NCBI GenBank assembly: GCA_024644405.1
Contig: JAHELC010000038.1
Span: forward strand, 62,001 to 126,000
Reading direction: 5' to 3'
From: Nitrospinaceae bacterium
GTDB lineage: Bacteria; Nitrospinota; Nitrospinia; Nitrospinales; Nitrospinaceae
DNA: 64,000 nucleotides
Both the position numbers and the translations under genes were made by a program. How positions within the stretch are numbered: the first letter of the stretch is position 1; the number at the start of each line of letters is the position of its first letter. Of the stretch, positions 48,340 through 61,300 are shown one piece after another. Under the pieces are notes generated by a model, which was not told the origin of the DNA, ran no database searches, and saw only the letters and a program-made list of their open reading frames with translations.

Positions 48340-50730
48340 ATGAAAATATCCCCTCCGAAGAAAGAGGCTCCGGCAACTGGCCCCGGCCCGTTTAAAAAGG
48401 CTTTGCCCAAACTTGGCCAAATAAGACCTCAAAAAATCCATCAGTTACTGGTATCGGAGTTATTGAATAAAATCGAACTATTTAAATATTTTGAACAGCC
48501 AACCCTGAATCGAATTATTCAGGAAAGCCCTGTGAGGCTCCTAGAAAAGGGTGAGATTCTTTTTGAGGGGGGAGGCGGGGAACAGAATTCCATGTATATC
48601 ATTCTCTCGGGTCAGGTGATGGTTTATAAATCCAAGAAAATTATTTCTTATCTGGGGGCAGGTGATTACGTGGGGGAAATGCCGTTAGTTGATTCCAAAT
48701 CCCGTTCGGCCTCCGTAAAGTCCATGGGAGAAACTTTATTGATGGAAATAAATGAAGCGATTTTCAACAATCATATCGCTTCCAACTCAAAAGCGCTCCT
48801 TGCAATGATGAAAGTCTTTTCCCAGAGAACCCGAAACGACTTATCACGGATGGAAATGGACATGAGAAAAATGAGCTGTTTTACTCATGACATGAGAAAC
48901 ATCCTGGAGCCCTTGAGAATAACAGAAGCCTTTCTTAAAGATGTATTAAAGTCACTGAGGGGAACCCAGGAACGTCATACAAAACGGGATGGCTATAAGG
49001 GATTGAAAGTGGGAGTGGATACCGTCCTTGCGGTCCGCAGCAATTTGATTTCAATGATCGATCAGAGTTTGGCTTGTGTAAAAAAAACACAAGGGGAATA
49101 TATCAAAGAAGATTTTGATCTATTGGCTTTAGTCAAGGAAACGGTTAAAGAAATAGCCTTCCATAAATATCTGAAGCAGAAAACCATTAAGGTCGACTCT
49201 CCTGAAATCCAGGTCAATGGGAATTTCAACTATTTAGACATCAAGAGGGTTTTGCAAAACCTGATTATCAATGCCGGGTATGCGACCCAGGAAGGAGATC
49301 AAATAATTTGTTATGTGAAAAATGCGGACGACGCCATTGAAATCAGCATTGAAGATCATGGGTCCGGGATCCCGGACGACATCAAACCGTTGCTTCTGAT
49401 GGAAAGTTTCACCTCCAAACTTGACGGTAACGGCATTGGTTTGATTTCATGCAAGGAAATTATCGAAAAACGTCATGGGGGCAAAATCAGGTTTGAATCG
49501 GAATTGCACAAGGGAACCACTTTTTATATAACCCTGCCCAAGTCCACACAAAAAAAACAGCATGCAGGTTCGAGCCAGGGTTTCAAGCTGGATTCGGCCA
49601 GTGAAGATGCCATGTTGATGAAATTGGAACTCCTGGAAAAAATAGATCTTTTTGAGTGCCTCCCACAGGATGCTAAAGAAAAACTGGCTCGGGAAAGCAG
49701 GGACGTGGTTTTAAGGGAGGGCGATGTATTAATTAAAGAAGGGTCGATGGATGAGCAATACCTCCATATTCTTCTGCGCGGAAAAGTCCGGATATGCAAG
49801 GGGCCAAACTATCAGAAGGTTATCACCGATTTAAAATCAGGAGAATATCTTGGGGAAATATCGCTGATCGACAACATGCCCCGATCCGCTTCTGCCGTGG
49901 CGTTGACGGATGTTTTTATCATTGAAATTGATAAAAACCTGTTTTTAAAACATATCGCTCCAATTCCCGAAGCTCTTCTGGAGATGATGAAAGTCTGCTC
50001 CCGCCGCCTGAGAAATGATCTTGATACCATGTCCAGCGACATTCAACAGGTCAGCCATTTTACCCATGACATGGGAAACTGTTTGGTCCCTTTAGGGTTT
50101 TCTGCCGTCCATTTCAAAGATACATTCAAAAAGCTGAGCGGTACCCAGGGGCTCCATAAAAAGCGTAAAGGCCGGGATAAAGTAAAAAAAGGATTCGACA
50201 TCATGGCATCGGTTAAAAAAAACATGATATCCATGATCAACCAGAGTCTGGCATGTGTCCAGAAAGGGGCTAGGGAATATGCTAAGGCCAAAGTCGATAT
50301 CGTCGATTTGGCAAAAGAAGCTACGCGGGAAATCGGTTGTCATAAATACCTTAAAAGCAAAAAATTAAAATTTATGGCGTCAGGTTCGAACACGACGGGA
50401 CTTTTAAATTCCCTGGATATGAAAAGAGTTTTGCAAAACCTGATTATTAACGCCGGTTATGCTTCACCCGAAAACTCGGACATTTCAGTTTGTGTCAAAG
50501 GATTGTATGGGGCAATAGAAGTCAGTGTGGAAGATAAGGGGGCCGGGATTCCAGAAGATATCAAACACCTGCTGTTTAAAGAAAATTTTACATCCAAACC
50601 TGACGGCGATGGGTTTGGCTTGATGTCCTGCAAGGAAATCATTGAGGATTATCACCAGGGGAAAATCGGGCTCAGGTCAGAAACTGGAAAAGGCAGCACC
50701 TTTTTCTTTACCATCCCCAATTGTCATTAA
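48340..50730 (+). CDS. Tandem-duplicated cNMP-binding histidine kinase, 796 aa
   Basis: The polypeptide contains the same module twice, with a period of about 393 residues. Each copy has a cyclic-nucleotide-binding domain (first about 45-165, second about 425-555), a helix carrying the phospho-acceptor THDM.N (H183 and H576) and a HATPase_c domain with VLQNLIINAGYA, the D.GSGIPDDIK or D.GAGIPEDIK box and NGIGL/DGFGL. No membrane helix or receiver domain exists. Both kinase copies look intact. The linker ends near residue 410 with a QKKQHAGSS stretch. It probably senses cAMP or cGMP directly. The gene is AT-rich compared with the first 34 kb. Confidence 0.9.
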   Translation: MKISPPKKEAPATGPGPFKKALPKLGQIRPQKIHQLLVSELLNKIELFKYFEQPTLNRIIQESPVRLLEKGEILFEGGGGEQNSMYIILSGQVMVYKSKKIISYLGAGDYVGEMPLVDSKSRSASVKSMGETLLMEINEAIFNNHIASNSKALLAMMKVFSQRTRNDLSRMEMDMRKMSCFTHDMRNILEPLRITEAFLKDVLKSLRGTQERHTKRDGYKGLKVGVDTVLAVRSNLISMIDQSLACVKKTQGEYIKEDFDLLALVKETVKEIAFHKYLKQKTIKVDSPEIQVNGNFNYLDIKRVLQNLIINAGYATQEGDQIICYVKNADDAIEISIEDHGSGIPDDIKPLLLMESFTSKLDGNGIGLISCKEIIEKRHGGKIRFESELHKGTTFYITLPKSTQKKQHAGSSQGFKLDSASEDAMLMKLELLEKIDLFECLPQDAKEKLARESRDVVLREGDVLIKEGSMDEQYLHILLRGKVRICKGPNYQKVITDLKSGEYLGEISLIDNMPRSASAVALTDVFIIEIDKNLFLKHIAPIPEALLEMMKVCSRRLRNDLDTMSSDIQQVSHFTHDMGNCLVPLGFSAVHFKDTFKKLSGTQGLHKKRKGRDKVKKGFDIMASVKKNMISMINQSLACVQKGAREYAKAKVDIVDLAKEATREIGCHKYLKSKKLKFMASGSNTTGLLNSLDMKRVLQNLIINAGYASPENSDISVCVKGLYGAIEVSVEDKGAGIPEDIKHLLFKENFTSKPDGDGFGLMSCKEIIEDYHQGKIGLRSETGKGSTFFFTIPNCH

Positions 50731-51414: not shown

Positions 51415-54400
51415 TTATTGAAGTGAGAGCGTGACCGAAACAAATAGTGACCGGGCCGGTACCCTGCGCGGGTTTCGAATATCTGAATCAAAATGTTGGA
51501 ATTCCTCGTCAAAAAGGTTGGCGACTCCCAGGGACAGGAAGCCGTACCGCTTGGGAAAACGATATTTGATGGAGGCATCCACTATCCAGAATTCATCCCG
51601 GCCATTCATGAGCACCCCAGCAGAAGCATCCAGCCGTTCAAACCTTCCCTTCTGTTCTACATAGGTTCCTTTAAATGTTGCACTCAATCCACTGGGATGG
51701 AAAAAGTTGATTCCGAGAGGAATATAATTGCTTTCAACGTTTGTTACACCGAGATTAAATTCATCCCCTCTTTCCAGCCGTTCCCACCGATATTCCGCGG
51801 TAAGCGATAGCCATTTATGTAGCGTCCAGAATAGGTAAGCGCGGATCCGTTTTTCATCCCAGTCCGAAGTATCCACCAGGTTTGTACTTATATTCGTAAA
51901 TGGAACTTCCAGTTTCTTATAGGTATGCTCGAATCCTCCATAGATACTTTTAGAGAATTTCTGATCGATAGCGCCTCCAAAGACACTATAATCTGCGCCT
52001 TGAACCTCATCAAAGAACTGACTGAAACCCGCGACCTGGGTCGGCTCCAGAGTTTGGTCGGTGGCCAGTGTTCTTCTGAGGACCCTGAAAGCTGCACCAC
52101 GCAGTGTCGTACCTTGAATAGGCTCCCAAATGATCCCGGCTTTAGGATTGAATTGATTTTTATCCAGATCTGAAGGATTATCCACGGCTAAGAAGTCGCC
52201 GCTTCCACCCAAAATGAGGGTCAGGTTGTCCCAGGGTTTGAGATAGGAGTACAAATAAACATTAGAGTGTTTTCTGTCTCCATCTGTAGCGCTTGATCCT
52301 GGAGGAATAGCACAAAAGTGGGGAGGAGCAGCTAACTTGATACAAGCCTGAAAATCGGTATTGGTTACCGAGTCTATGTAAAAAAGTCCACTACCAAACA
52401 CAAATTTAATATTTTTTGATCGAAACAGATATTGAAGTTCACCGCCTGCCCGATCATTTTCATTAACAAAATCAAGATTCGCCAAAAAAAGGTCACCCGG
52501 ATTTATATTGGGTAGTGTTGCGTTCGGATCATTAGGTTCAGATTGCACATTAAAGTCTTCATTGATATACGTAAAATTGCCGATGAGATCAGAGCCCGGA
52601 GAGAGAGTATGATGAAATCCCAGACGTCCTACCTGGAATTGGCGATCTTGGTCCTGGATGGGTAAAAAGTCATCTTCAAAGAATCTCAAGACGACATCCC
52701 CGGTTTTTGTCTCCCTATATCGGTATTCCGCCTGAATACTGGTTTGAGGAGTCAATTGATATTGCACGAAGGCGTTGACGAGGTCATCTTCTTGGTAAGC
52801 GTTTTGGCGCCAGCCATTGGTGTCAAATTTACTGTAACCGACGCTGAAGGATGCCTTGTCGAATATTCCGGAGATGATGCCTTCACCGGAATAGGTGTCG
52901 TTTTCAGCCACGATGCCGTTGCCCTGAAAGGTAATCCCATTTCTTTTGAACAGGGGATTAAACTCATTGAACGACAAAGCTCCCGGTCCGCCGGCGCTGA
53001 TCAGCAGCAGATTACTTTCAGCGAGACGCGGCTGAATGGGGGTCATGTTGATCGGCTGAAGCAGTTGCGACTGCAACAGTTCGCTGACCCGGGCAATTTC
53101 ATGACGGGGTAAGGAAGAATACGAATCGGCCAACAGACGGTGGGCGGAAAAGTTGGTGGGATCGGTGGTCGCTGACAGCCAGCCTTCCAGCAGGGCGCGT
53201 TTCTGGAAACCGAGGTCGGTGTAGATGCGCCCGATGGCCGCGCTCCGTGAAGCCAGGTCCGAGTCCAGCAGTAACTGGGACCGAAACGGCGCCCGGTTGT
53301 CATTCAACTCAATGGAAGTCTGCAGATCGTGCAAGGCTTCGACCGGCCGATTGGTGGTTTGCTTTTCAATCGCGTCGTACAAATAAGGCGTGGGATCCTT
53401 GGGATCCTTCTTTTTGGCGATGTCGAACTGCTCCGAGGCCCTGTCGCTGCGTTTTTCTTCGTAATAGGCTTTTCCCAGATAACTGCGCATCAGGGAATTG
53501 TTCGGGTCGAGATTGACCGCTTCTTCGATGTCTCCCCGGCCATCCTCTAACACACTGTCTCGGATTTTGGCCAACCCCTGACCCAGTTTCGGCAAGGGAT
53601 CGCCCTGATCCAACTCAATCGCTTTCTGGAAAGCATCCCGGGCTTTGTCCGTATCTTCCCGGGTGAGATGGGCAAAGCCCAGTACCGTTTGCGTCCTGGC
53701 GAGATTCGGGTTCAGGGAGACAGCCTTCCGGGCCGCCTCGAGGGCTTTATCCCGGTGGCCGTGCGCGGACCAGAGCTCCGCCAGCCGTGCCCAGGCCAGC
53801 GCATTTTGCGGTTCCAATTGCACCGCGATTTGCAGACTGGTCAGGGCGCCTTCCAGATCGAACCGGGCCTGCTGGGCATACGAAAGTGCGATCTGCGCGT
53901 TCGCAGATTTCGGATCGGCCTGGACGGCCTGTTGTGCCTTGCTGAAGGCATCCTCTTTTTCGTTTTGCGCCACAGCGATGATCGATTGCAGGGCAAACGC
54001 GTCACTGTGTTTCGAGTCAAGGCTCAGGGCCTGCTGAATATTTCCAGCGGCGGCGTCCACCTGGCCGACGGAAAGCTCCAGTGACGCCCGGTAGATGAAA
54101 AACCCGGGGTCTTGAACCTCGGGTACGTTCTCAAGACGATCAAAAGCCGCCTTGAGATCTCCCTTTTGATAAGACTGAATGGATTGCTGGAAGGCGCCTT
54201 GAAAATCTTCCGGTCGAATGTCAATGACTGGCGGGTAATACAAGGTCCAGCGAACGGCATCCTGGGGACGCGCCACTATCCTCAGAACAGGCGCCTGACC
54301 CGGGTTCGCCTCGGCGGACTGTCCGTTCTTCAACGCAAGGGTTCCGGACGGATTGGACGCCAGCACCACTCCCTCAAATATTGTCAGTAAGGTCTTGTCA

Positions 54401-54846
54401 TCAACGACGGTTATGAAAAACTCCGTACCCCGGACAGCGGCAATAGCGGAGGGTGTCACCACCTCCAGGCTTTTGGGAGCCAGGCTGAAAAAATAGGCCG
54501 CGCCTCGAAGAAGGTCGATCAGGGCGGTATCTTTTTCCTTAATGTCTTTTAGAGTGAGGGTCGTGTTGGCATTAAGCCGAAGAATCGATTTTGCCAGTGC
54601 AACCTCAGCCCGGCTTTTTGCATTCGACCGGAGTTTATCTCCGGGGCAGAAGGTGTCATTCAACTTAACCGGCAGCCATTGTGTAGCGCCCACCCGTTGG
54701 GCCTCTATACTGCCTTGAACCGACACCATTGTGGCGATAGGTTTCTCACAAGTTGGGGAGGATGAAGCTTGGGGGGTTAATAAGAGGACCGCGAAACTTG
54801 AACCAACTAGAAGACGAAAAAGATATCCACAAATATCCTTCATCAC
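51415..54846 (-). CDS. FecR-TPR-outer-membrane beta-barrel fusion, 1143 aa
   Basis: Three parts in order after a signal peptide (1-30). A FecR domain (about 35-175) shows VSVQGSIEAQR, GDKLRSNAKSRAEVAL and VVTPSAIAAVRGTEF. A TPR array (about 205-590) includes ARLAELWSAHGHRDKALEAA. A C-terminal TonB-receptor-like beta-barrel (about 600-1143) contains RYRETKTGDVVLRFF and RFPKRYGFLSLGVANLFDEE. No plug or TonB box was seen. Base composition differs along the gene: 16 of 60 bases are G+C at 52381-52440, and 38 of 60 at 53821-53880, suggesting that barrel and TPR parts have different histories. Divergent from the CHASE2 cyclase. Confidence 0.87.
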   Translation of the reverse strand: MMKDICGYLFRLLVGSSFAVLLLTPQASSSPTCEKPIATMVSVQGSIEAQRVGATQWLPVKLNDTFCPGDKLRSNAKSRAEVALAKSILRLNANTTLTLKDIKEKDTALIDLLRGAAYFFSLAPKSLEVVTPSAIAAVRGTEFFITVVDDKTLLTIFEGVVLASNPSGTLALKNGQSAEANPGQAPVLRIVARPQDAVRWTLYYPPVIDIRPEDFQGAFQQSIQSYQKGDLKAAFDRLENVPEVQDPGFFIYRASLELSVGQVDAAAGNIQQALSLDSKHSDAFALQSIIAVAQNEKEDAFSKAQQAVQADPKSANAQIALSYAQQARFDLEGALTSLQIAVQLEPQNALAWARLAELWSAHGHRDKALEAARKAVSLNPNLARTQTVLGFAHLTREDTDKARDAFQKAIELDQGDPLPKLGQGLAKIRDSVLEDGRGDIEEAVNLDPNNSLMRSYLGKAYYEEKRSDRASEQFDIAKKKDPKDPTPYLYDAIEKQTTNRPVEALHDLQTSIELNDNRAPFRSQLLLDSDLASRSAAIGRIYTDLGFQKRALLEGWLSATTDPTNFSAHRLLADSYSSLPRHEIARVSELLQSQLLQPINMTPIQPRLAESNLLLISAGGPGALSFNEFNPLFKRNGITFQGNGIVAENDTYSGEGIISGIFDKASFSVGYSKFDTNGWRQNAYQEDDLVNAFVQYQLTPQTSIQAEYRYRETKTGDVVLRFFEDDFLPIQDQDRQFQVGRLGFHHTLSPGSDLIGNFTYINEDFNVQSEPNDPNATLPNINPGDLFLANLDFVNENDRAGGELQYLFRSKNIKFVFGSGLFYIDSVTNTDFQACIKLAAPPHFCAIPPGSSATDGDRKHSNVYLYSYLKPWDNLTLILGGSGDFLAVDNPSDLDKNQFNPKAGIIWEPIQGTTLRGAAFRVLRRTLATDQTLEPTQVAGFSQFFDEVQGADYSVFGGAIDQKFSKSIYGGFEHTYKKLEVPFTNISTNLVDTSDWDEKRIRAYLFWTLHKWLSLTAEYRWERLERGDEFNLGVTNVESNYIPLGINFFHPSGLSATFKGTYVEQKGRFERLDASAGVLMNGRDEFWIVDASIKYRFPKRYGFLSLGVANLFDEEFQHFDSDIRNPRRVPARSLFVSVTLSLQ

Positions 54847-55458: not shown

Positions 55459-57690
55459 ATGAATACCCGGTGGATAAATGCTTTCACAGTATCTGTATTG
55501 ATCTCCCTCGTTTCACTTTATATTTATTCCCTCGACCTCACCTTTTTTAAGCTTCTGGAATTCAAGGCATATGATTTTAAAATGTCGCTGCGGGGCATCA
55601 GGCCGGTATCAGACCAGGTCGTGATCGTTGCGATCGATGAACACAGTCTTCAGCGCGAAGGTCGCTGGCCCTGGCCGCGTACGCGGTTGGCGAAACTGGT
55701 GGACAAGTTGACTGAATCGGGTGCGGCGGTAATCGGGTTGGATCTGTTGTTTCCTGAAAAGGATATCTACGTTCCTTTCGATGAAGTGATGAGTGAAATT
55801 GAAAAGAAAGATCTGGCCGGCATGAACCGGAAGCAACTGAAGAGTTGGTTGAAGCAGGCAAGCGATTCGGATGCCAAATTAGCCGCCGCGATGCGTCGGT
55901 CTGAACGTTCGGTGTTGGGTTATTTCAGTTATCCAACCATTGAACTTGCCGAGGGGTCCGCGGAGGTAATGGGCCCCAGAGAATTCGAATTGCTGGAATC
56001 TTCCCAGTACCTGGCGCAGTTCGATAATAAATCATCTAAGCTCGATTTTCTGCACCCCATGGTGGCGGTGGGTCTCAGCCTGCCTGCTTTGATGGATGCC
56101 GCCAACAGTGCGGGTTACTTTTCCTTTATTCCGGATCGTGACGGGATCCTGCGCAGGATACCCATGGTGCAAGTATACAAGGAAGCCCTGTTCCCGCCGT
56201 TCAGTTTGCAAATGTTGAAGGAAGCCACACGCTTGAATATCTCCGTCCGGGTTCTCCCTGACCACGTTGCAGAAATCCTGTTGGGGGAAGATATCACGAT
56301 TCCCGTTGTTACGGAGAAAGGGGAATATCTTGTGAATTATTACGGGCCAGAGCAAACGTTTACCCACCTTTCGGCCTCCGAAGTGATAGATGGAACAGTG
56401 GAGCCGGGACTCTTGAAGAATAAAACCGTACTGGTGGGCGCCACCGCCATTGCCCTCCCTGATCGTCACAGCATCCCCTATGGTCCCCTTTATCCCGGTG
56501 TGGAGGTGCATGCGACCATCATAGAAAATATTCTGAACCAGGATTTCCTGCAACATCCTCCCTGGATTCGCATGCTGAGCATGATGGTGATACTGGGGGC
56601 GGGTTTGCTGTTGGGTTTGGCCTCTCTATATTTCAAAGCGGTTGGCACCGCCGTCTTTCTGGGGGTTGGAGTCGGGGGATACCTGGTGGCCGATTACGTA
56701 TTGTTTACCCAACAGGGGTTGTGGGTGCATACCGTGTATCCGGTTTTCTCGCAAGTGCTGGTTTATTTTGGGATCACTCTGTATCGCTTCACATTTGAAG
56801 AACGCGAAAAACGGTTTATCAAGGGAGCGTTCAGCCAATACCTGGCGCCGACCGTGGTCGACCGGCTGGTGGAAAATCCCAAGCTTCTAAAGTTGGGCGG
56901 CGAACGCAAAGTCTTAACCGCTTTCTTTTCCGATGTGGCTGGTTTCTCGACCATTGCCGAGAAATTGGAAGCCGAGGAACTGGTGGACCTGCTGAATGTT
57001 TACCTGACGGATATGACTGATATCATCCTGAAGTACGAGGGTACGGTCGATAAATTTGAGGGGGACGCAATCATCGCTTTCTTTGGTGCGCCTATCGAAT
57101 TTGAAGATCATGCCACCCGAACCTGTTTCGCCGCGCTGGATATGCAAAAACGACTGGCTGAGTTACGCGAAAACTGGAAAAAAGAAGACCGCCCCGAATT
57201 GTTCATGCGTATCGGAATCAATACTGGTCAGATGGTGGTTGGAAATATGGGATCCACAAGCCGCATGGATTACACCATGATGGGCGATTCTGTTAATCTG
57301 GCCGCACGGTTGGAGGGCGTTAACAAGCAATATCAGACGTATACCATGATAAGTGAATTTACCTTTGAACTGTCGAAGAATGATATCGAAGCACGTGAAC
57401 TGGATTCTATCCGTGTGGTGGGAAAACAGGAACCGATCAAAATTTACGAGGTGTTGGGCCGAAAAGGTGAAATAGATGATGCCATGCGCCGCATTCTCCC
57501 TTTTTTTAAACAAGGCTTGAGCCACTACAAAAACAGACGGTGGGAGGAAGCCATCGTTTCTTTTGAAAGTGTATTAAGTTTTGATGAAAATGACGGTCCT
57601 TCTTTGACTTATTTTGACAGATGTACCAATTATCTAAACAATCCACCGCCATCTGATTGGGATGGGGTGTTTGCCATGAGAACCAAATAA
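55459..57690 (+). CDS. CHASE2-domain class III adenylate cyclase, 743 aa
   Basis: A first membrane helix (7-28), a large periplasmic CHASE2 domain (about 35-360; VVIVAIDEHSLQREGRWPW, GYFSFIPDRDGILRR, VLVGATAIALPDRH) and three membrane helices (about 370-450) lead to a class III cyclase. Metal-binding D492 and D536, substrate-selecting K532 and D604, and transition-state N613 and R617 are all present, so ATP is the expected substrate. A C-terminal extension (about 690-743) resembles one TPR-like pair. It should make cAMP in response to periplasmic input. Divergent neighbour: the FecR fusion. Confidence 0.92.
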   Translation: MNTRWINAFTVSVLISLVSLYIYSLDLTFFKLLEFKAYDFKMSLRGIRPVSDQVVIVAIDEHSLQREGRWPWPRTRLAKLVDKLTESGAAVIGLDLLFPEKDIYVPFDEVMSEIEKKDLAGMNRKQLKSWLKQASDSDAKLAAAMRRSERSVLGYFSYPTIELAEGSAEVMGPREFELLESSQYLAQFDNKSSKLDFLHPMVAVGLSLPALMDAANSAGYFSFIPDRDGILRRIPMVQVYKEALFPPFSLQMLKEATRLNISVRVLPDHVAEILLGEDITIPVVTEKGEYLVNYYGPEQTFTHLSASEVIDGTVEPGLLKNKTVLVGATAIALPDRHSIPYGPLYPGVEVHATIIENILNQDFLQHPPWIRMLSMMVILGAGLLLGLASLYFKAVGTAVFLGVGVGGYLVADYVLFTQQGLWVHTVYPVFSQVLVYFGITLYRFTFEEREKRFIKGAFSQYLAPTVVDRLVENPKLLKLGGERKVLTAFFSDVAGFSTIAEKLEAEELVDLLNVYLTDMTDIILKYEGTVDKFEGDAIIAFFGAPIEFEDHATRTCFAALDMQKRLAELRENWKKEDRPELFMRIGINTGQMVVGNMGSTSRMDYTMMGDSVNLAARLEGVNKQYQTYTMISEFTFELSKNDIEARELDSIRVVGKQEPIKIYEVLGRKGEIDDAMRRILPFFKQGLSHYKNRRWEEAIVSFESVLSFDENDGPSLTYFDRCTNYLNNPPPSDWDGVFAMRTK

Positions 57691-57771
57691 ATAACGGTAG
57701 CCGTTTGTGTTTTGGCCTGTATCTGGTGGAGTAATAAATATTTTGGGAAAAAAGTAACGGGGGCAAGAGTT

Positions 57772-58428
57772 TTACTTTAATATCTTGTTCTTAAAAGCGT
57801 AATGGATCAGTTCCGTATTATTTTTCATTTCCATCTTTTCCAGAATGCGGGCCCGGTAGGTTCGGATTGTGGCTTCGCTGATAGAGAGTTCGTCTGAGAT
57901 TTCATGGACGGATTTTCCTCTGACGATCAGGCAAAACACCTGGAATTCACGTGAAGAAAGGGTTTCGTGAGGTTGTTTTTTAGAATGACCGCCCAAATCA
58001 AAAGCGATCTTTTCGGCAAGTTTCTGGCTGACAAACTTTTTCCCCTGCGCCACTTGACGTATCGCCTCCACCAATGATTCCAGGTCACCCAGTTTATACA
58101 AGTAACCCGACGCGCCTTTTTTGAAACACCGCTCTGCATATTCCGCCTCACTGTTGACGCTTAAAATCAGGATGGGGAGGTTTGGAAATTCAACTTTTAA
58201 ATCATCCATCACGGCCAGCCCGCCTTTTTCAGGCATCTCCAGATCGAGGAGCACGATATCCAGGTTCACTCCCGGCTTCCTTATTTTATCCAGCAACTCC
58301 ATGCCATTTTTCGCCTGGTCGACAACGATCATATCGGATTCTTGTGTAATCAAACGCATGAGACCTTCCCTGACGATACGATCATCGTCGGCAAAGATCA
58401 CCTTGATTTTGTCCTGGTGGGTGGTCAT
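57772..58428 (-). CDS. NarL/LuxR-family response regulator, 218 aa
   Basis: Receiver domain with D62 in IVLLDLEMPE, the switch Ser in LILSVN and K in GYLYKLGD. A LuxR helix-turn-helix follows (about 150-212; LSSREFQVFCLIVRGKSVHE, ISEATIRTYRARILEKM). No kinase gene is adjacent on its strand. The PAS-GAF kinase at 59086 and the cytosolic tandem kinase are possible partners. Confidence 0.92.
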   Translation of the reverse strand: MTTHQDKIKVIFADDDRIVREGLMRLITQESDMIVVDQAKNGMELLDKIRKPGVNLDIVLLDLEMPEKGGLAVMDDLKVEFPNLPILILSVNSEAEYAERCFKKGASGYLYKLGDLESLVEAIRQVAQGKKFVSQKLAEKIAFDLGGHSKKQPHETLSSREFQVFCLIVRGKSVHEISDELSISEATIRTYRARILEKMEMKNNTELIHYAFKNKILK

Positions 58429-59085
58429 CGCACATTTAAAGAAGCCTGAACCGTTATTGCTTCTCCCCTCACTAAATGCGGTAGATAGATTCCCGGTATT
58501 TCTTACTTGTAATAACTCACTACGATTAAATATGTACCATATTTTAGCTAATTTTATTGGGAAAGCTTCCTTTTTTGGCTAAATTTCAGCAAATCCCCGG
58601 ATGGCGAAAAGGACATACAAGTCCGAATTCAGCGCACAATCAACACAAAGGGAACGTGATTTTACGGTATGGAACTGATTATGCGGAGGGTTCGCTTGAT
58701 CGGAACACAGAATCGAAAAGGGTTCGAGCATTGAGAACCTCCAAGGTATTGCCAGCCTCCTGCAGATGCTGACTCCCTGCCAATGGAAGCCATGCGATCT
58801 GGGGAATCCTGCCTGATCGTGTCCCCTTTGTTTTTCCCTTGTCATCATTTTAAGGACAAAATTTTCAATATTTCAGTGACATGACAAAACTATTAGCCAG
58901 ATTTATATTAAGCCATGAAAACCGGTAATGGGAAAACGTTATTAACAGATAAAAGGTTTGTTTCCGGTTCTGGTTTTTAAGACCTGGTTTGTTGGACCGG
59001 GAATTTGAATTAATAATATAAGTTTGCCGTAAAACTTGAAATTTGGAATCTGATTCCAGGTTGCAAGGTAAAGGAGGGACTTAAA
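58429..59085. other. Intergenic region of 657 bases, no gene supported
   Basis: Divergent gap between the LuxR regulator and the PAS-GAF kinase. AAAGGAGGG lies 7 bases before the ATG at 59086, giving the kinase a very strong ribosome site. Frames of 71-89 codons near 58557-58848 lack ribosome sites and protein-like composition. No riboswitch or tRNA was recognised. Confidence 0.5.
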
Positions 59086-60756
59086 ATGCTCTCGGAAGCT
59101 GTAGATTCAAACGAATTATTGCAGGAATCAAAAATCGCTTATCAGACACTTCTTGATAATTCTTTCGATGCAATCATCGCCATCGATTCTGAAGGGATGA
59201 TTACCATATGGAATCACCGGGCTGAATCGATGTTTGGCTGGAATACTGAAGAAGTTATTGGAAAACCACTCACTCAAACAATCATTCCTTCCACTTTTCA
59301 TGAAGCTCATACCGAAGGTTTGAAGCGCTTCATAGCTACAAAAGAAAGCCGGGTGTTAAACCAGAGACTGGAATTAACTGCCTTGCATCGAAATGGTTAT
59401 GAAATCCCGATTGAAATATCCATCTGTGCTTCTACTTTCAGGGGCAGGCCGACTTTCACAGCTATTATCAAAGACATCACTGAGAATAAAAATGCTCTGA
59501 AGGAAATGCGGCTTAAAAAAGAGGAATTCAAGGTTTTGCATGAAGTGGCTCAATCGCTCCAGGATTCTGAAACCATGGAAGGAATGCTGCATAATGCCAT
59601 GGAAGCGATCAGTCAAAGTAAGGGCCTTCATGTAGAGAACAAAGCCGGGGTTTTTCTCGTTGACGAAGATAAAAACACATTGCGGCTGGCGTCAATTTTA
59701 GGCAAGTTCCCCAAGGGATTTTTAGAAAATCAAAACGAAATACCTTTTTATAATATTCCCTACGGCCGTTGTTACAGTTCGGGAGAGATCCTCATCAACA
59801 ACTACTGCCAATTCAAACCCCATCGCTTGGGGCCTTTTGGCGACTTAACCAATTACGGCACCTACGTTATTCCGCTTAAAAGTAGAATGAAGGTAGTGGG
59901 AGTGTTGTTTCTTTATACACCGGAACCGCCTCCCGGTTATGAAGGCAGCACGGAAATTCTGCAGTCCATTGGGTCGTTGATGGGCAATGCGATCCAACAC
60001 CGAAAATTCGAAAGAAAAATCCATCAACAGAATAAAAAACTGAATAGACTGAACGCCCTCAAAAATAAATTCCTGGGAATCGCTTCGCACGATTTACGCA
60101 ACCCGCTTTATGCCATCATGTCCTATAGCGATGTTCTTGCAGACGGTTCTTTGGGTGAGATGAATGATCAGCAGCGCGCAATACTTCAAAAAATCGCTAA
60201 ATCAGGCAACCATATGTGTAATCTGCTGGAAAACCTGCTTGATGTCTCTCGAATTGAGAGCGGTCAGTTTTCTCTGAAGAAATCGCCCCAGGATATCAAT
60301 ACTATTGTGAAAGACCAGGTGGATAAATACCAACTGGCGGCGAAAGAGAAAAATATTGACCTGCATTTCAAGAGCGACATCTCTCCCACCTTGACGGTCG
60401 ACCAGTGTTCCATGATTCAAGTCATGGATAACTTCATAGGGAATGCCATTAAATTTTCTCCAAACAATACAAAAATATGTGTCAGGACAGAAACCTCAAA
60501 CAGCCATTTTCGGTTTTTAGTGAAAGATGAAGGCCCTGGCATATCTGAAGAGGATCAAAAGCTGGCGTTTTGTGAATTTCAAACATTGGGCAGTAAACCC
60601 ACCGGCGGCGAGAAATCAACCGGCCTGGGGCTGGCCATATCAAAAAAACTCATTCAATTGCACGGAGGAAAAGTGGGGATCATTTCCCAAATAGGGGAGG
60701 GCAGTACCTTTTATTTTGATCTTCCCGTGCAGAAGGAAGCGACACCGGATACTTGA
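59086..60756 (+). CDS. Cytoplasmic PAS-GAF histidine kinase, 556 aa
   Basis: Domain order: PAS (about 18-135; LLDNSFDAIIAIDSEGMITI, WNTEEVIGKPL), PAC-type segment, GAF (about 155-310), HisKA with SHDLRNPL (H335) and HATPase_c ending near 550 (DEGPGI, STGLGLAISKKL). No membrane helix. The downstream receiver gene begins after 121 bases and is the probable partner. The ligand of PAS or GAF is unknown. Confidence 0.92.
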   Translation: MLSEAVDSNELLQESKIAYQTLLDNSFDAIIAIDSEGMITIWNHRAESMFGWNTEEVIGKPLTQTIIPSTFHEAHTEGLKRFIATKESRVLNQRLELTALHRNGYEIPIEISICASTFRGRPTFTAIIKDITENKNALKEMRLKKEEFKVLHEVAQSLQDSETMEGMLHNAMEAISQSKGLHVENKAGVFLVDEDKNTLRLASILGKFPKGFLENQNEIPFYNIPYGRCYSSGEILINNYCQFKPHRLGPFGDLTNYGTYVIPLKSRMKVVGVLFLYTPEPPPGYEGSTEILQSIGSLMGNAIQHRKFERKIHQQNKKLNRLNALKNKFLGIASHDLRNPLYAIMSYSDVLADGSLGEMNDQQRAILQKIAKSGNHMCNLLENLLDVSRIESGQFSLKKSPQDINTIVKDQVDKYQLAAKEKNIDLHFKSDISPTLTVDQCSMIQVMDNFIGNAIKFSPNNTKICVRTETSNSHFRFLVKDEGPGISEEDQKLAFCEFQTLGSKPTGGEKSTGLGLAISKKLIQLHGGKVGIISQIGEGSTFYFDLPVQKEATPDT

Positions 60757-60877
60757 ATTGAATAGACGGGAAAACATTTTCCTGTTGGAACGACCCGTAG
60801 AGGGGCGGCCATTTTAGGGGATAGCTTGGAACTCTCATGAAAAGGCTGAATGTTAACTCAAATGAAGGAGAATCGAC

Positions 60878-61300
60878 ATGTCAATAATGGATATTTGCGC
60901 AAGCACCCATGGAAGAATCCTGATCATTGAAGACGACGTGGATATAAGAGATATCCTGAAGCTTCAATTGGAACAGGGGGGGCACCAGGTTATTGAAGCT
61001 AAAGATGGCCAGGAAGGCATTGATCTAATGAAAAAAGGTTCCAACCTGCTTCAGGTGGGGCTCATCATTACCGATATTCGCATGCCTAAAGTCAATGGCG
61101 TTGAAACGATCGATTATATCAAGGCCAATGCACCCTCCATCCCGATCATGGTGGTCACGGGTTATCCTGATACCAAGCTGGCGGTGAATCTGCTTCAGAA
61201 AGGGGTCAGGGACTTTCTTGTAAAGCCTGTCGAAAAAGACACGCTGCTGGGAAAAGTGTCCGCCATCCTTTCTTCAAGACAGGAATTCAGTTATGTATAG
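60878..61300 (+). CDS. Single-domain response regulator, 140 aa
   Basis: CheY-like receiver only. Acidic residues are in IIEDDVDIRD, the phospho-acceptor is D66 (IITDIRMPK), the switch Thr is in VVTGYP and the Lys is in VKPVEK. No DNA-binding or enzyme domain follows. It probably relays phosphate from the PAS-GAF kinase to a further target by protein contact. Confidence 0.9.
   Translation: MSIMDICASTHGRILIIEDDVDIRDILKLQLEQGGHQVIEAKDGQEGIDLMKKGSNLLQVGLIITDIRMPKVNGVETIDYIKANAPSIPIMVVTGYPDTKLAVNLLQKGVRDFLVKPVEKDTLLGKVSAILSSRQEFSYV

Follow-up and report, generated by a model that had tools for sequence, protein, structure and literature searches.

An uninterrupted frame in the genome of a Nitrospinaceae bacterium raises the question of whether one chain can hold two complete histidine kinases and, if so, how these would work together. 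The gene lies in a stretch of 64,000 nucleotides (the window), which belongs to a genome of 2.98 Mb (G000). An initial annotation had proposed that a module of 393 residues is repeated head to tail in the encoded protein, and had named self-alignment among the ways to check this. BLASTP alignment of the N-terminal against the C-terminal half gave 173 identical residues out of 368 (47%) with 3 gaps and an E value of 3e-112, at a repeat offset of exactly 393 residues. The half-to-half alignment score was 822 vs. a maximum of 63 among 300 shuffles, so that the repeat is overwhelming. No hydrophobic, membrane-like stretch was detected in the 796 residues (maximum 19-residue Kyte-Doolittle value of 1.24), and the kinase is predicted to be cytosolic.

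To each half, scanned separately, Pfam assigned one cNMP_binding and one HATPase_c domain, every match being above the curated cut-off. The cassette pattern of CNB domains, G-E ... R-[ST]-A, occurs twice, with PF00027 and the GE/RSA residues in each half. Both His sites and both sets of ATP-binding boxes were intact, as the annotation had read them: H183 and H576 lie within FTHDM[R/G]N, and the N-box (NLIINAGYA), G1 (DxGxGIP), F-box and G2 (DGxGxGL) by which a histidine-kinase ATP-binding domain is recognized were found in the N and in the C half. HisKA gave no Pfam match in either half. For this reason, the assignment of the DHp domains relies on the H-box, on the helices seen in the structural models and on matches of the HK853 type. 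In the models both histidines sit in an H-box on a two-helix hairpin, and the DHp/kinase region matched HK853 from Thermotoga in sequence as well as in fold. The annotated layout of the module was thus right in its domains and boxes and had to be corrected in its boundaries, as the modules extend over residues ~36–400 and ~425–793 with a linker of ~20 residues between them, and in its DHp, which has no Pfam HisKA match. The positions of all parts are collected in Table 1.

Table 1. Positions in the window of the fused kinase gene, of the parts of its protein and of two genes of its genomic context.
Feature	Position	Strand	Basis or remark
Fused double cNMP histidine kinase	48340..50730	+	Single uninterrupted frame, 796 aa
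N-half cNMP-binding domain, residues ~37-148, cassette GEMPLVDSKSRSAS	48448..48783	+	PF00027, E 3.1e-15, half alone
N-half signalling helix and DHp hairpin (predicted), helices 150-207/219-248, H183 in FTHDMRN	48787..49083	+	H-box alignment, model
N-half HATPase_c, residues 300-402	49237..49545	+	PF02518; N, G1, F, G2 boxes
Inter-module linker, residues 404-421	49549..49602	+	Low pLDDT, alignments
C-half cNMP-binding domain, residues 457-537, cassette GEISLIDNMPRSAS	49708..49950	+	PF00027
C-half signalling helix and DHp hairpin (predicted), helices 543-600/612-641, H576 in FTHDMGN	49966..50262	+	H-box alignment, model
C-half HATPase_c, residues 692-793	50413..50718	+	PF02518, E 8.3e-20, half alone
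Class III nucleotide cyclase, 743 aa (context)	55459..57690	+	Guanylate_cyc PF00211, E 2.6e-23
Stand-alone receiver protein, 140 aa (context)	60878..61300	+	Alignment, synteny with G001

A fusion of this kind might be non-functional or transitional, with no selected property, or an artefact of assembly. It was found in just 2 of the 31 genomes that carry the module, and the second record, from the same-genus sister genome G001 (GenBank JANQEK010000022.1), is a metagenome assembly. Nevertheless, we consider this explanation very improbable. G001 holds a fused counterpart of 796 aa in an open frame, 80% identical and with the same junction, which excludes that two genes were joined or collapsed by an assembly error, the outcome that the annotation had named as its refutation. 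Comparison of the two genomes gave a dN/dS of ~0.07 in each half (dN ~0.09, dS >1 and thus saturated), and the equally low values indicate that both halves are maintained by selection. The fastest-evolving part was the disordered linker, with 41% identity to G001 and a dN of 0.38; in stand-alone module genes it corresponds in the alignment to the N-terminal tail. Taken together, the gene encodes two complete, equally constrained kinase modules, both apparently intact.

The origin of the fusion was approached by a profile search for the module in 77 genomes across the phylum. The module was present in 31 of them, mostly as one gene of ~370–410 aa with, in most cases, 38–56% identity to each fused half, while the fused form was confined to G000 and G001 among the genomes sampled. 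Two genomes, G044 and G050, carry two separate module genes head to tail on one strand, with gaps of 106 and 86 bp, respectively, and in a third (G038) the 3′ end of one module gene lies directly upstream of a full module gene, at a contig end. In the one Spirochaetes genome that was hit, the matches were at domain level only. In 10 Nitrospinales genomes the single-module gene has a gene for a uracil methyltransferase with a TRAM domain on one side and a convergent gene for a class II (D/K/N) tRNA synthetase on the other, a site which the fused gene does not occupy. At this conserved site (L048:7698-11662 and nine further loci) an adjoining regulator gene is mostly absent. In two genomes of genus g4, G012 (L050:8962-10054) and G039 (L035), two frames that overlap or adjoin each other stand in place of one intact single-module gene, which reflects either gene decay or assembly error; one of these two genomes is 98% complete.

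In the phylogenetic tree, each fused half was placed inside a supported clade together with tandem and single module genes. The C half was sister to the stand-alone gene of the same-genus genome G005 (support 99/96); this gene lies on a contig that starts 61 bp before it, so an upstream partner is possible. A clade of only the two fused halves was weakly rejected (p-AU 0.048), and a topology with the N half and the tandem upstream gene as direct counterparts gave a p-AU of 0.37. From the sister position of the C half and the weak rejection of a fused-halves clade, the duplication seems to be older than the fusion. As the fusion is restricted to G000 and G001 and the relatives are single or tandem, the sequences point to an origin of the fused kinase by tandem duplication, and then in-frame fusion, of a Nitrospinales single-module kinase gene.

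The annotation had also stated that the two cNMP domains have diverged and may bind different nucleotides. The divergence was borne out, since the cNMP domains of the fused halves are 34% identical vs. 54% for the catalytic domains and are thus the most diverged part, whereas in the unfused tandem pairs of G044 and G050 the sensors are 54–55% and the catalytic domains 57–59% identical. The second part of the statement was not supported as worded: both phosphate-binding cassettes retain GE and RSAS, so that different nucleotides are possible, yet not indicated. In the module genes of G018 (L043:9133-10359) and G016 (L014:980-2215) the cassette Arg is replaced by His, which suggests that the ligand may have been lost or changed there. 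Cyclic-nucleotide binding should hence not be assumed for the whole family.

Histidine kinases are usually dimers, in which four DHp helices make up one bundle. For the fused kinase, the reading that we prefer, and to which we give about an even chance, is that a single chain brings its DHp hairpins together in one bundle integrating two diverged cNMP-type sensors. Both hairpins would pack as one four-helix bundle, a pseudo-dimer, and each HATPase domain would phosphorylate a DHp histidine, either in cis or across the bundle. Through the signalling helices, both of the diverged cNMP-type domains would drive this same bundle, so that the output would combine two inputs, and the phosphate would be handed to a response regulator encoded elsewhere. 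Two AlphaFold2 runs, one of them deep on each half, gave sound domains but pTM values of only 0.49 and 0.51, the modules being joined by a flexible tether of ~20 residues. A fold search with the whole model returned domain-level matches only, to PKG, PKA-R and Epac for the sensors and to HK853 and others for the kinase.

A short tether would favour pairing within the chain through local concentration, which speaks against a parallel homodimer, the main rival arrangement, which we regard as less likely. In it, two chains would pair N-N and C-C and form two kinase bundles on one scaffold; these bundles may address different regulators, the fusion merely tethering side-by-side kinases. Such pairing would be in line with the single-module relatives, which presumably homodimerise like other histidine kinases, and with TodS, which has two autokinase modules and is reported to act as a dimer (PMC4861429). 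Between the G000 halves, the positions that follow the His and contact the regulator also differ (EPITF vs. VPFSH). However, the corresponding positions in G001 read VPISN vs. VPISH, and because they vary between orthologues as well, a conserved split of partners was not seen.

We think it improbable, more so than the parallel homodimer, that the kinase is asymmetric, with one half phosphorylated and the other serving mainly as a sensor, scaffold or ATP domain, its His being dispensable. A precedent for this comes from the downstream gene of the G044 tandem, in which the motif reads FTNDMKN, Asn replacing the acceptor His, at a still low dN/dS of 0.088 vs. G050. This is, however, a single case in a fragmented assembly, and the fused proteins of G000 and G001 have lost neither His and neither ATP site, with equal constraint on the two halves. 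The Asn gene itself (L042:4802-6007, codon AAT) may encode a catalytic-only partner or may be a sequencing error. Going back to the single-chain bundle, a more specific form of it would be a natural single-chain heterodimer, evolved from single via tandem to fused genes, with sensors that differ in their ligand or affinity and make the kinase output a two-input logic gate; we put this forward tentatively, as slightly less probable than the parallel arrangement.

Next to these considerations stands the question of input and partner. The fused gene forms a unit by itself between a divergent gene of the metallo-beta-lactamase fold and a convergent small gene, and no response regulator is present in its operon; a dedicated neighbouring partner was ruled out on this ground. 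The class III nucleotide cyclase gene lies 4.7 kb downstream, and its counterpart in G001 has the same order. As the G000 genome encodes five class III cyclase domains, including this one, a cyclic nucleotide is plausibly made, and the cyclase is a possible source of the ligand for the fused kinase. On the other hand, relatives of the cyclase are present in sister genomes that do not have the kinase, and the proximity of the two genes may be due to chance. Between the two genes, on the minus strand (51415-54846), the window encodes a protein of 1143 aa in which, by eye, a FecR-like domain, TPR repeats and a C-terminal outer-membrane beta-barrel can be read; a 72% identical counterpart adjoins the cyclase in G001.

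From the cyclase onwards (55459-61300), the window holds in turn the genes for the cyclase, a NarL-type regulator, a PAS histidine kinase and the stand-alone REC protein, in the same order as in G001, where the REC protein is 91% identical. This 140-aa receiver is a weak candidate for the phosphate acceptor of the fused kinase; more likely it partners the adjacent PAS histidine kinase. Close relatives of the NarL-type regulator and of the REC protein occur in many genomes, some of them with no module gene, so that no partner is claimed and this block was set aside as a candidate. The single module gene of G018 and that of G005 have a related REC gene 0.4–1.7 kb away, which gives only a weak hint at a partner.

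How the two subunits of a histidine kinase dimer integrate their signals is difficult to study, as both are the same protein. In the fused kinase the subunits have been joined by evolution and the sensors have diverged, and unfused single and tandem relatives are at hand for comparison. Each His, ATP site and sensor can be mutated separately in one chain, which makes cis vs. trans phosphorylation testable; activation by one or by two ligands can be addressed likewise directly.

A search of the literature gave no result for Nitrospina cNMP histidine kinases. The protein was compared with double and monomeric kinases from elsewhere. EL346 is reportedly a single LOV-HWE kinase, and its core, like that of the engineered EnvZ monomer, is said to work without a second chain. 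Both appear as monomeric kinases in titles cited in PMC10359499; the fused kinase differs from them as a natural chain with two full modules. With the double sensor kinases of the TodS type it shares two sensor-kinase modules per chain. In TodS the sensors are PAS domains, and a receiver located between its kinases makes an internal phosphorelay (PMC4861429, PMC3018481); TodS is reported as a chain-to-chain dimer (PMC4861429). The fused kinase, by contrast, gave no Pfam Response_reg or receiver match over its 796 residues, has just the ~20-residue linker where TodS has its receiver, and consists of modules that are paralogues of one family; an internal phosphorelay like that of TodS was ruled out by the absent receiver. 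With two transmitters in one chain and no receiver, it belongs with the receiver-less TT kinases, which rank among the rarest two-component architectures: in a 2010 census, 2 of 15,704 non-hybrid kinases were receiver-less double-transmitter proteins, and a receiver was present in 96.2% of the double-transmitter kinases (PMC3018481). For myxobacteria, a fusion or fission event (T,TR/TT) that gave a receiver-less double-transmitter protein has been noted (PMC4603909). Neither cNMP sensors nor a single-tandem-fused series is described for receiver-less TT kinases in the consulted passages of PMC3018481 and PMC4603909. Closest to the fused kinase are the Nitrospinales single-module cNMP histidine kinases, which have the same cNMP-DHp-HATPase order and the same boxes, but one module per gene, and the tandem pairs of G044 and G050, which share the family and the head-to-tail modules, but as separate genes. 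The fused kinase is therefore a very rare receiver-less double-kinase type, with an unusually clear series of single, tandem and fused forms.
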